From: Ramlibacter paludis
GTDB taxonomy: Bacteria > Pseudomonadota > Gammaproteobacteria > Burkholderiales > Burkholderiaceae_C
Direction of reading: 5' to 3'
NCBI RefSeq assembly: GCF_022012305.1
Contig: NZ_JAKLTM010000004.1
Location: 248,001-312,000, forward strand
Length of the DNA stretch: 64,000 nucleotides
The notes beneath the pieces are model-generated. The model was not told the DNA's origin. It saw only the letters and a list, made by a program, of their open reading frames with translations, and did not search any database. The first letter of the stretch is position 1, and each line of letters begins with the position of its first letter. The position numbers and the translations under genes were made by a program. Below are positions 22,628 through 25,921 of the stretch, piece by piece.

Positions 22628-22767
22628 ACAAGCTTGAGTCTGACACTGTTTTTTGATCGGACTGCAAGGAATACAGTTCATCCATCGCCACCGACGCAGT
22701 CAACCAGAAAGCGCCCGGCGAGCGGACCCGACATGTCGCCGAGCCCGGACTCCTCAAGGAAAGCATC

Positions 22768-23136
22768 ATGAAGACCTCTCGTATCGCCCTCGCCACCGCC
22801 GTCCTCGCCACCGCCGCTTTCGGCGCCATGGCCGATGAAGCCGACGGTTCCCAGTACGCCGTGCAGTTCAACGGCGCCAAGACCCGCGCCGAAGTGCAAG
22901 CCGAACTCGCGCAGTTCAAGCAAGGCGGCGTGAACCCCTGGTCCATCCAGTACAACCCGCTGAACAGCTTCCGTGGCGCCAAGACCCGGGCGCAAGTCCA
23001 GGGCGAGTACATCGCCAGCCGCGACGCCGTCGCCGCCTTCACCTCGGAAGACAGCGGCTCCGCTTACCTGGCGGCCCGCAAGCCGGTGGCGACGACGCAG
23101 TTCGCCGGCCAGCCCGCCGGCAACGCCGCCGAGTAA
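22768..23136 (+). CDS. DUF4148 periplasmic protein
   Basis: 122 residues, a signal peptide (MKTSRIALATAVLATAAFGAMA) followed by the two-part DUF4148 pattern: GAKTRAEVQAELAQFKQGG at residues about 37-55 and GAKTRAQVQGEYIASRDAVAAFTSEDSGSAYLA at about 70-102. Such small proteins are abundant in Burkholderiales; their role is not established. A good ribosome site (AAGGAAAG) precedes ATG 22768. Divergent from the LysR gene and possibly under its control. Confidence 0.85.
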   Translation: MKTSRIALATAVLATAAFGAMADEADGSQYAVQFNGAKTRAEVQAELAQFKQGGVNPWSIQYNPLNSFRGAKTRAQVQGEYIASRDAVAAFTSEDSGSAYLAARKPVATTQFAGQPAGNAAE

Positions 23137-23146
23137 TTCACGTCCA

Positions 23147-23183
23147 GGCCCCTCGCAACGCGGGGCCGCCTGCCTCGGCAGGC
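23147..23183 (+). terminator. Two adjacent hairpins after the DUF4148 gene
   Basis: GGCCCC (23147-23152) pairs with GGGGCC (23162-23167), and GCCTGCC-TC-GGCAGGC covers 23168-23183. No T-run follows, but they separate the DUF4148 gene from the repair operon. Confidence 0.45.
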
Positions 23184-23190
23184 CGGGAAG

Positions 23191-23206
23191 CTGTATGCTT
23201 GTACAG
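23191..23206. promoter_or_regulatory. LexA-type SOS box
   Basis: CTGTATGCTTGTACAG is a perfect CTGT-N8-ACAG palindrome, the LexA recognition pattern known from gamma- and betaproteobacteria. Its last base is the first base of the GTG start codon of the repair operon, so bound LexA would cover the transcription or translation start. Confidence 0.75.
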
Positions 23207-24474
23207 TGATTCTCAAAGACAAGCTCGCGATCCTCGCCGACGCCGCCAAGTACGACGCCTCCTGTGCGTCGAGTGGCGGCGTCAAGCGCAATTCCCTCGA
23301 CGGCCGAGGCCTGGGCTCCAACGAGGGCATGGGCATCTGCCACAGCTATGCACCCGACGGCCGCTGCATCTCGCTGCTGAAGATCCTGCTGACCAACTTC
23401 TGCCAGTACGACTGCCTGTACTGCGTCAACCGAGCCAGCAGCAACGTGCCGCGCGCCCGTTTCACCATCGACGAAGTGGTGCAGCTCACGCTCGACTTCT
23501 ACCGCCGCAACTGCATCGAGGGCCTGTTCCTTTCCAGCGGCATCATCCGCAGCCCCGACTACACGATGGAACAGGTGGTGGAGGTGGCGCGGCGCCTGCG
23601 CGAAGAGCATGACTTCCGCGGCTACATCCACCTGAAGACCATTCCCGACGCCGCGCCGGAACTGCTGCAGCGCGCCGGCCGCTACGCCGACCGGCTGTCG
23701 ATCAACATCGAGCTGCCCACCGAGCAAGGCCTGGGCGCGCTGGCGCCGGAGAAGGACGGCGCGGCGATCCGGCGCTCGATGGCGCGTCTCCGCGTGCACA
23801 TCGACGACGCGAAGGGCGAAGCGCGCGATGCAGCGCGCATTCCCATCGCGTCCGTGCCCGGCGCGAAGCCGGCGCGCGCGAAGGCGCAGGCTTTCGCCGC
23901 CGCCGGCCAGAGCACGCAGATGATCGTGGGCGCGGACGGCGCCGACGACGCGACCATCCTCTCCACCAGCGCGCAGCTCTATGGCGCCTATCGCCTCAAG
24001 CGCGTCTACTACTCCGCCTTCAGCCCCATTCCCGACGCCGCATCCGCGCTGCCTCTGCAGGCGCCGCCGCTGGTGCGCGAACACCGCCTCTACCAGGCCG
24101 ACTGGCTGATGCGCTTCTACGGCTTCGAGGCGGGCGAGATCGCGTCGGAGCGCTCGGGTGGCATGCTGCGGCTGGAGGTCGATCCGAAGCTGGCCTGGGC
24201 GCTGGCGCATCCCGAGAAGTTTCCGGTGGACGTCAATCGCGCGCCGCGCGAACTGCTGCTGCGCGTGCCCGGGCTCGGCGTGAAGGCGGTCGATCGCCTG
24301 CTGCTGGCCCGCCGCGTGCGGCGCGTGCGCTCCGAGGACCTCAAGCGCCTGCACGTGCCGGTGGCCAAGGTGCTGCCCTTCGTGCTGTTGCCGGACCACC
24401 GGCCCGCCCCGCAGGCCGCCGTGACCGCCGCAGCGGCGCGCCCCGCGCCCGCGTTGCAGGGCGCGCTGTTCTGA
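23206..24474 (+). CDS. Putative DNA modification/repair radical SAM protein (TIGR03916 type)
   Basis: 422 residues starting at GTG 23206; the N-terminus MILKDKLAILADAAKYDASCASSGG matches where family members start, so the start inside the SOS box is probably real. The radical SAM cluster is CQYDCLYC (Cys66, Cys70, Cys73). A C-terminal helix-hairpin-helix (VPGLGVKAVDRLLLARRVRRV, residues about 348-370) suggests DNA binding. Family members resemble spore photoproduct lyase-like enzymes and are paired with a UdgX-type gene, as here. The actual lesion is unknown. No normal ribosome site lies close to the GTG, so a leaderless message is possible. Confidence 0.85.
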   Translation: MILKDKLAILADAAKYDASCASSGGVKRNSLDGRGLGSNEGMGICHSYAPDGRCISLLKILLTNFCQYDCLYCVNRASSNVPRARFTIDEVVQLTLDFYRRNCIEGLFLSSGIIRSPDYTMEQVVEVARRLREEHDFRGYIHLKTIPDAAPELLQRAGRYADRLSINIELPTEQGLGALAPEKDGAAIRRSMARLRVHIDDAKGEARDAARIPIASVPGAKPARAKAQAFAAAGQSTQMIVGADGADDATILSTSAQLYGAYRLKRVYYSAFSPIPDAASALPLQAPPLVREHRLYQADWLMRFYGFEAGEIASERSGGMLRLEVDPKLAWALAHPEKFPVDVNRAPRELLLRVPGLGVKAVDRLLLARRVRRVRSEDLKRLHVPVAKVLPFVLLPDHRPAPQAAVTAAAARPAPALQGALF

Positions 24475-24478
24475 AGCC

Positions 24479-25921
24479 ATGCTGGTCCGCCTCGCCAGCG
24501 AAACCGACCTGGCCGGCTTCCGGCAGGAAGCGCGCGCCTTGCTGGCCCGCGGCGTGCCGCCGTCGGAGGTGGTCTGGGCGGCGGAATCCGGGCAGGACGA
24601 CCTCTTTGCCGAGGACGTGCCCGCACCCGCCGGCGAGCCGCGCGCCGCTGCCGTCACCGTGTCGGTGCCGGCCGCTTTCCTCGAGTTGTGCAACACCGTG
24701 GTGCTGCACATCGACCCGCAGCGCTTCGCCCTGCTCTATCGCCTGCTCTGGCGGCTGGCGCGCGAGCCCGGTTTGCGCCACGATCCGCTCGACGCCGACA
24801 TGCTGCAGGCGCGGCAGCTCGCGCAATCGGTGCGGCGCGACATCCACAAGATGCACGCCTTCGTCCGCTTCCGCACGGTGGCCGACGACGACCCGTCGGG
24901 CGAGCCGCTGCACGTGGCGTGGTTCGAGCCCGAGCACCACATCGTCGAAGCGAATGCTCCGTGGTTCAAGCGCCGCTTCGCCAACATGCGCTGGGCGATC
25001 CTCACGCCCCGGCGCTGCGTCGCGTGGGACCGGCGCGAGCTGCACTTCCTTCCCGGCGCCGGCCGCGATGCGGCGCCGCCGCCCGATGCCGGCGAGCAGC
25101 TCTGGCTCACGTACTACCAGAGCATCTTCAATCCGGCGCGCCTGAAGCTGCGGATGATGCAGCAGGAGATGCCGCGCAAGTACTGGCGCAACCTGCCGGA
25201 GGCGCAGCTGATCGCGCCGCTGGCGGCGCAGGCGCAGGAGCGCAGCGGCCGCATGCTGGAAGCGCCGGCCACCATTCCCTTGAAGCGGATTCCCCTGTTC
25301 GCGGCCGTTCCGCAAGCGCCGGCCGGGCCTGGCCTGCCCGCGCTGAACGAGGCGATGCAAGCCTGCCGCGCCTGCCCGCTCGGCGCGACCGCCACGCAAG
25401 CGGTGCCCGGCGAAGGTCCGCTGCAGCCCGGGCTGATGTTCGTCGGCGAGCAGCCCGGCGACCAGGAGGACCTGCGCGGGCGCCCCTTCGTCGGCCCGGC
25501 CGGCCAGTTGCTCGATCGTGCATTCACGCAGGCCGGCATCGCGCGGCAGGAAATCTTCGTCACCAACGCCGTGCGGCACTTCAGCTTCGAACTGCGCGGC
25601 AAGCGGCGCATCCACAAGACGCCGCAGCAGCAGGAGGCCGATGCCTGCCGCCACTGGCTGGAGCACGAGATCGCGCAGGTCCAGCCGCGGGCGCTGGTCG
25701 CACTGGGAGCGACCGCGGCGCGCGCGCTGCTCGGGCGTGCCGTGCCGGTGCTGAAGGAACGCGGGACCTGGCACGCCCGCGGCGACGGCCTGCAGGTTCT
25801 GGTGACGCTGCACCCTTCCGCCCTGCTACGAATGCCTTCGGAGCAATTGCCGGCCGCTTTTGATGCTTTCGTTGGCGATTTGCGGCGCGCGGCAGCCGGT
25901 CCCGCGCCGGTAGCTGGCTGA
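24479..25921 (+). CDS. TIGR03915-UdgX fusion, uracil-DNA-binding repair protein
   Basis: 480 residues, four bp after the radical SAM gene. The N-terminal ~270 residues match the TIGR03915 family, which travels with the radical SAM gene. Residues about 285-470 are a UdgX-type uracil-DNA glycosylase: GEGPLQPGLMFVGEQPGDQED, GRPFVGPAG, TNAVRHFSFELRGKRRIHKTP and LVTLHPSALLR. The KRRIH loop with His379 is the UdgX hallmark; in characterised UdgX this His forms a covalent bond with the abasic site after uracil removal. It acts on chromosomal DNA and is expected to be SOS-induced through the upstream LexA-type box. Confidence 0.9.
   Translation: MLVRLASETDLAGFRQEARALLARGVPPSEVVWAAESGQDDLFAEDVPAPAGEPRAAAVTVSVPAAFLELCNTVVLHIDPQRFALLYRLLWRLAREPGLRHDPLDADMLQARQLAQSVRRDIHKMHAFVRFRTVADDDPSGEPLHVAWFEPEHHIVEANAPWFKRRFANMRWAILTPRRCVAWDRRELHFLPGAGRDAAPPPDAGEQLWLTYYQSIFNPARLKLRMMQQEMPRKYWRNLPEAQLIAPLAAQAQERSGRMLEAPATIPLKRIPLFAAVPQAPAGPGLPALNEAMQACRACPLGATATQAVPGEGPLQPGLMFVGEQPGDQEDLRGRPFVGPAGQLLDRAFTQAGIARQEIFVTNAVRHFSFELRGKRRIHKTPQQQEADACRHWLEHEIAQVQPRALVALGATAARALLGRAVPVLKERGTWHARGDGLQVLVTLHPSALLRMPSEQLPAAFDAFVGDLRRAAAGPAPVAG

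Follow-up and report, generated by a model that had tools for sequence, protein, structure and literature searches.

Why should a perfect CTGT-N8-ACAG palindrome end exactly on the start codon of a DNA repair operon? The question is raised by a 64,000-nucleotide stretch of Ramlibacter paludis (NZ_JAKLTM010000004.1, positions 248,001 to 312,000; hereafter the window), which encodes a radical SAM protein followed by a fusion of a DUF4130 domain with the uracil-DNA glycosylase (UDG) UdgX. The 16-mer CTGTATGCTTGTACAG occupies 23191-23206, and its final G opens the GTG start codon of the radical SAM gene at 23206, exactly as the original prediction had placed it. Comparison with orthologous loci points to an operator of LexA, the repressor of the SOS response, which may also hold the -10 hexamer of a leaderless transcript. 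The elements in question are:

23191..23206, + strand: predicted LexA-type operator CTGTATGCTTGTACAG; its last G doubles as the first base of GTG, and the box (at most one mismatch) is present in 49 of 57 Burkholderiales orthologues
23194..23199, + strand: putative -10 hexamer TATGCT (TAnnnT) within the operator; predicted transcript start at about 23206, with TAnnnT conserved
23206..24474, + strand: radical SAM DNA repair/modification protein; GTG start, 422 codons; TIGR03916 at 544.7 bits (cut-off 343.5)
24479..25921, + strand: TIGR03915 (DUF4130)-UdgX fusion protein; ATG start, 480 codons, 4 bp after the radical SAM gene

Conservation of the box before the operon

The count of such palindromes is uninformative. 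A pattern scan found one perfect CTGTN8ACAG in the 64-kb window, and 42 of 100 shuffled windows contained at least one (mean 0.51 per shuffle). The 5.0-Mb genome holds 27 perfect sites, compared to five for the reversed control pattern; the shuffle mean scaled to 5 Mb gives an expectation of about 40, and the 27 observed are not above dinucleotide chance. The genome-wide count was thus rejected as evidence, though the reversed control gave only five. Judged by count, the palindrome on its own has no significance, and the frequency check proposed together with the original prediction could not decide function. A weight matrix was also built from 28 distinct boxes in the lexA and recA promoters of congeners, excluding the two of R. 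paludis itself. With this matrix, CTGTATGCTTGTACAG scores 16.4, the top of the window with a runner-up of 9.1, where an order-1 Markov null expects 0.083 sites per 64 kb. By core composition, however, it ranks only 15th among the 27 perfect sites of the genome. It is therefore not among the best of them, as had been asked, and the claim of an outstanding site was dropped.

The site stands above chance because the box is conserved in orthologues. The loci compared were drawn from the best 80 of 545 confirmed homologues and from two genome-set profile scans, in which 14 of 61 genomes and 22 of 399 genomes of the order exceeded the cut-off (R. paludis included in both); the operon is therefore sporadic in the order. 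Among the homologues listed, the closest named one is from Ramlibacter terrae, with 90% identity over 295 residues. Every locus was anchored on the conserved KLxIL codon, the box was sought in the 100 nt before this anchor, and overlapping windows taken from the same loci at 50-nt steps served as controls. The 57 Burkholderiales loci are those left after removal of the duplicates L042, L034 and L151 (of L021, L029 and L145, respectively), of L133, which has no anchor, and of the below-cut-off loci L030-L032, L035 and L146-L150. The gammaproteobacterial locus L083 was excluded from the box rates as its upstream sequence is too short, and L049 was scored as boxless although it retains the right half and the GTG.

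CTGTN8ACAG, which we take to be the LexA box type of Burkholderiales, is present with at most one mismatch in 49 of the 57 orthologues and is perfect in 31, compared to 76 of 5622 control windows (1.4%) at most one mismatch and 2 of 5622 perfect. None of 44 alphaproteobacterial loci has it at this threshold in the 100 nt before the anchor. Instead, 22 of the 44 carry a perfect GAACN7GAAC, the LexA box of alphaproteobacteria, which occurs in 6 of 5717 control windows. Such switching of the operator with the clade-specific specificity of the repressor is strong evidence for LexA, and the predicted LexA control of the radical SAM-UdgX operon, as originally proposed, is well supported. Among gammaproteobacteria, the Burkholderiales-type box was found in 1 of 12, a Halomonas (L106), with one mismatch. 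The alphaproteobacterial loci without GAACN7GAAC are mostly of Bradyrhizobium type (17 of 22); LexA control is therefore not universal for the operon.

The own genome of R. paludis has the regulator and its usual targets. It contains a single lexA hit (TIGR00498, 227 bits), and in the genus lexA was found in 37 of 37 genomes and recA above cut-off in 34 of 37. The box, with at most one mismatch, lies upstream of 29 of 30 lexA and 22 of 30 recA loci read (own included; 230-250 nt searched). Perfect sites precede the own lexA (CTGTATTTTTCAACAG), recA (CTGTTGATCGAAACAG) and imuA (CTGTTTCTTTATACAG), the last being the top scorer of the genome's 27, and a further perfect site (CTGTATATTAGTACAG) lies between a UvrD-type helicase gene and a DUF72 gene.

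Two other upstream patterns were observed at loci of the operon. In 12 of the 17 Bradyrhizobium-type loci (L052-L057, L060, L064, L070, L072, L079 and L113), four or five GANTC sites, the CcrM methylation motif, are found in the 100 nt before the KL codon, with about 0.1 per 100 nt elsewhere in the loci. In all nine loci compared from Xanthomonas, Stenotrophomonas, Pseudoxanthomonas and Luteimonas (L066, L073, L075, L078, L095, L096 and L098-L100), the LexA box is replaced by TCTCAN5TGAGA, mostly GTCTCAN5TGAGAC, about 54 nt before the KL codon; the Rhodanobacter and Luteibacter loci are without it. Two whole genomes hold three and two exact sites of this type (reversed control 0), which adjoin uvrA, a PA0069-type radical SAM gene, DECH-box helicases and the radical SAM-UdgX operon, and these sites perhaps form a small DNA-repair regulon under a separate regulator. 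Against such a regulon, the one-mismatch sites (13 and 6 in all; control 0 and 2) adjoin no further repair gene where read.

Operator, start codon and putative -10 hexamer

The box ends on an in-frame GTG in 28 of the 57 Burkholderiales loci, and 26 of these fused boxes lie exactly 30 nt upstream of the anchor. The other two fused loci, L134 and L074, have in-frame N-terminal insertions after the GTG, and the fusion is still kept. The start context was surveyed in 27 fused loci (L036 was hidden by a tie) and the hexamer in all 28. In the window, there is no in-frame start from the upstream stop at -72 to the GTG, and the next start codon lies 41 codons in. An upstream in-frame start is likewise absent from 15 of the 27 fused loci, and in 10 of those 15 the GTG follows an in-frame stop by only 6-21 nt. 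In 24 of the 27, at least 25 codons separate the GTG from the next start downstream. Translation in the window and in these 15 loci must therefore begin at the last base of the operator. A mis-annotated start codon is not supported for the window, in which the GTG corresponds to M1, a nearly invariant position in 31 aligned sequences.

The original prediction had also noted that no ribosome site is nearby. This is nearly right: a weak purine run, GGGAAG at 23186-23191, is present 14 nt before the GTG, which is too far for a usual Shine-Dalgarno sequence. At -3.6 kcal/mol, the 20 nt before the window's GTG have the strongest Shine-Dalgarno energy among the 27 fused loci, for which the mean is -0.55 kcal/mol.

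The fused boxes share bases that the dyad does not explain. T4, A5 and T9 are invariant in all 28, and TAnnnT, which holds the key bases of a -10 element, occupies positions 4-9 of all 28 fused boxes but of only 4 of the 21 unfused ones. For T9 alone the figures are 28 of 28 versus 6 of 21 (Fisher p 3e-8, with no correction for relatedness), or 19 of 19 versus 5 of 16 with identical boxes counted once. The dyad does not demand T9, whose partner in it, A8, persists in just 7 of the 28 fused boxes. The register 4-9 gives the best TATAAT match in fused boxes, with a mean of 4.25 of 6, and a start 7 nt downstream of this hexamer falls on the G of GTG; a leaderless mRNA is therefore predicted. The invariant T9 and TAnnnT are what one would expect if the operator contained a -10 hexamer and transcription began at the GTG, which lends support to the leaderless transcript suggested at the outset. 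A canonical promoter with a -35 element at the site was tried and rejected, as none was found in 22700-23400.

Moreover, the same box-GTG fusion begins the DUF72 gene of the same genome. Fusion was seen in 21 of the 23 best DUF72 homologues of the genus, that of R. paludis included, and each of these 21 has TATATT at positions 4-9. L173 is not fused; for L171 no anchor could be placed, and no box was seen. The pattern CTGTANNNTNNTMCAGTG, drawn from the radical SAM and DUF72 genes and hence no independent discovery of either, matched 74 places in 48 of 59 genus genomes, compared to three for the reversed pattern. We read 47 of the 74 places, comprising 30 returned loci and 17 picked beforehand as unassignable. 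The 30 returned loci begin the radical SAM gene in 15 cases, the DUF72 gene in 14 and neither in one. The further 17 comprise one radical SAM gene, four places before a parE-like gene, one before an imuA-like gene and 11 without gene assignment; one of the parE-like genes was tested and reached 686 bits, below the cut-off of 723, and the other three and the imuA-like gene were named by likeness only. The motif followed by TG is therefore not restricted to radical SAM and DUF72 genes.

On balance, these comparisons favor a conserved 18-bp module, CTGTAnnnTnnT(A/C)CAGTG, that would combine LexA operator, -10 hexamer, transcript start and start codon to give leaderless SOS genes. At least two unrelated targets within a single genus begin with it, namely the radical SAM-UdgX operon and the DUF72 gene, and in Comamonadaceae it would make the production of a self-sacrificing uracil-DNA cross-linker follow the SOS response.

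Several further features of these boxes were observed. In about half of the fused boxes (13 of 27; 12 of 21 for DUF72), CCAG replaces ACAG, a recurrent one-sided change of the right half-site at position 13, and the own genome has four CTGTN8CCAGTG sites. The parE-like topoisomerase gene with an upstream LexA-type box and TG is found in four congeneric genomes (L219, L223, L230 and L231), and these boxes resemble the SOS control of parCE in Bacteroidetes described in the consulted part of PMC8565304. In addition, a single LexA-type box at L014:1501-1516 (G000:C12:740039-740054) lies between the UvrD-type helicase gene, which is on the minus strand and 14 bp off, and the DUF72 gene, whose GTG it overlaps; judged by this arrangement, one operator may control both genes.

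Proposed mechanism and competing explanations

The site, its conservation, the start codon, the protein families and their motifs are read from sequence; from these we infer LexA binding, induction, a leaderless transcript, cross-linking by the fusion protein, a division of labour and an order of events. LexA bound at 23191-23206 would cover the -10 region and the transcript start and thereby exclude RNA polymerase. Upon DNA damage, RecA filaments would lead to self-cleavage of LexA and to transcription of the operon from about 23206, giving an mRNA whose 5' end lies at the GTG or a base or two from it. Operator, -10 hexamer, transcript start and start codon would thus act as a single 18-bp module. 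Translation would yield the radical SAM enzyme and, past the 4-bp gap, the DUF4130-UdgX fusion, the UdgX half of which would remove uracil and join its histidine covalently to the sugar. The likely benefit would be the capping of uracil or abasic sites during heavy-damage repair, while the lesion itself or the protein-DNA adduct would be the target of the radical SAM and DUF4130 parts. In the part of PMC10359453 available, UdgX is proposed to guard the genome against fragmentation at abasic sites, and its adducts are perhaps resolved by RecA-dependent pathways or proteases; induction of the operon together with RecA would fit this proposal. Taken as a whole, the explanation by an SOS operon under LexA, with the operator over the -10 hexamer and transcript start, a leaderless mRNA and cross-linking by UdgX, appears highly probable.

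Several observations weigh against this explanation. Eight of the 57 Burkholderiales loci lack the box even with one mismatch allowed, the rank of CTGTATGCTTGTACAG within its own genome is middling, and 12 of the 27 fused loci offer an in-frame start codon at some point upstream. The window's own candidate hexamer, TATGCT, matches TATAAT at 4 of 6 positions, and a sigma-70 promoter with -35 and -10 elements at 16-18 nt spacing was not found in 22700-23400 at the scan threshold. The control for the Shine-Dalgarno energies is small, consisting of six other gene starts in the window that range from -1.7 to -8.8 kcal/mol. In addition, E. coli often translates leaderless mRNAs that begin with GTG only poorly.

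The operator might instead be real while transcription starts further upstream, in which case LexA would act as a roadblock or block an upstream promoter, and the mRNA would have a leader without a Shine-Dalgarno sequence. The missing sigma-70 match near the box and the absence of a terminator-like site on the + strand would agree with this, and a DUF4148 gene on the same strand (22768-23136) makes read-through possible. An upstream start, however, leaves TAnnnT, which every fused locus has and few unfused ones share, and the TATATT of all 21 fused DUF72 boxes to be explained otherwise; the 40 columns before the box in orthologues show little conservation except in the last few, and GC-rich inverted repeats, seen by eye, separate the DUF4148 and radical SAM genes. 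We therefore consider an upstream start unlikely. Alternatively, another repressor that recognises a CTGTN8ACAG-like site, such as a second LexA-like protein or one of phage type, might control the operon. In favor of this reading are the extra lower-scoring hits to the lexA model in 16 of 36 congeners and the CCAG variant of about half of the fused boxes. It is nevertheless very improbable, given the single lexA hit of the own genome and the same box type at its lexA, recA and imuA. As for a chance palindrome without function, the unremarkable total of 27 perfect sites would allow it, but the box keeps its place in 49 of 57 orthologues and gives way to the LexA box of alphaproteobacteria in that clade, which leaves this reading next to no credibility.

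Encoded proteins, known systems and meaning

The domains and motifs of the two proteins are as follows:

23401..23424, + strand: CxxxCxxC cluster motif (C66, C70, C73) of the radical SAM protein; cysteines invariant in 31 aligned sequences
24497..25204, + strand: TIGR03915/DUF4130 domain of the fusion, residues 7-242; profile match, 226 bits
25208..25888, + strand: UdgX domain, residues 244-470; TIGR03914 at 276.9 bits (cut-off 189.95)
25445..25462, + strand: UdgX motif A, GEQPGD; invariant in 33 aligned sequences
25601..25615, + strand: UdgX R-loop KRRIH with the predicted cross-linking H379; R377 and H379 invariant, K375 in at least 90% of the 33
25811..25831, + strand: UdgX motif B, HPSALLR; H445, P446, L450 and R451 invariant in the 33

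The radical SAM protein belongs to TIGR03916, which presumably equals COG4277 and whose title is "putative DNA modification/repair radical SAM protein". Its model has a mean predicted local distance difference test score (pLDDT) of 78, with residues 15-45 below 50, and matches radical SAM folds. The 50 matches listed are general radical SAM enzymes (HydE, biotin synthase, viperin and others) and give no pointer to a lesion, and a profile search of the sequences of solved structures returned no match at E 0.01.

The second gene is the TIGR03915-UdgX fusion that had been foreseen four bp downstream, since both TIGR03915 and TIGR03914 match the ORF that starts at 24479. UdgX is defined, in the part of PMC10359453 consulted, by motif A GEQPG, an R-loop KRRIH with a nucleophilic histidine, and motif B HPS(S/A)(L/V)(L/V)R. 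All of these motifs are intact in the window protein, and E324, Q325 and H379 are invariant in the 33 UdgX sequences. Structural similarity search with Foldseek showed that the model of the fusion (mean pLDDT 87) resembles Mycobacterium smegmatis UdgX (PDB 6ail), with an E value of 1.5e-21, a template modelling (TM) score of 0.88 by target length and 50% identity. Among the 50 matches listed, matches 1-30 are UdgX structures; the 50 comprise uracil/thymine DNA glycosylases and one DNA polymerase entry, with no informative fold match for DUF4130. M. smegmatis UdgX shares GEQPG, KRRIH and HPSxLLR with the window protein. However, its solved chains are single-domain proteins of 205-229 residues, whereas the UdgX domain here is fused behind DUF4130, in an operon with a radical SAM gene and a LexA box.

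SOS control of a UDG-COG4277 operon is of a kind already published for other phyla. According to the accessible part of PMC8565304, earlier work reported that a UDG-based repair system is SOS-controlled in Verrucomicrobia and Alphaproteobacteria; for Bacteroidetes, the paper predicts a COG1573-COG4277 operon controlled through LexA-type motifs. This is apparently the same gene pair under LexA as here. Compared to that account, the present operon is from Burkholderiales, its box is CTGTN8ACAG, the operator is fused to a putative -10 hexamer and a start codon, and the UDG half can be recognised as UdgX. The association of DUF4130, an SplB-like radical SAM protein and UDG is described in PMC3765255, the available part of which contains no operator or start-site analysis. 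A leaderless mRNA is described for M. tuberculosis lexA in the part of PMC2897130 at hand, an SOS gene whose transcript start is its translation start, as is likewise predicted here. The start of the mycobacterial transcript was measured, whereas the present one, in a betaproteobacterium, is a prediction; moreover, the first base of the start codon here belongs to the operator. No report joining UdgX with LexA, or UdgX with radical SAM, was found in the open-access literature. New here are thus the conserved fusion of operator, -10 and start, as predicted, and the putative link between UdgX and LexA.

The activity of UdgX has been shown for Bradyrhizobium diazoefficiens, and its physiological role is called largely unknown (PMC10359453, part consulted). 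LexA control would tell when the cell wants the UdgX cross-linker, and thus which stress could reveal its phenotype. The fused module is compact, in that drift of the operator would alter the start codon, and it would represent a simple class of leaderless SOS genes in betaproteobacteria. The clade-dependent change of the operator points to repeated selection for damage control of the operon.

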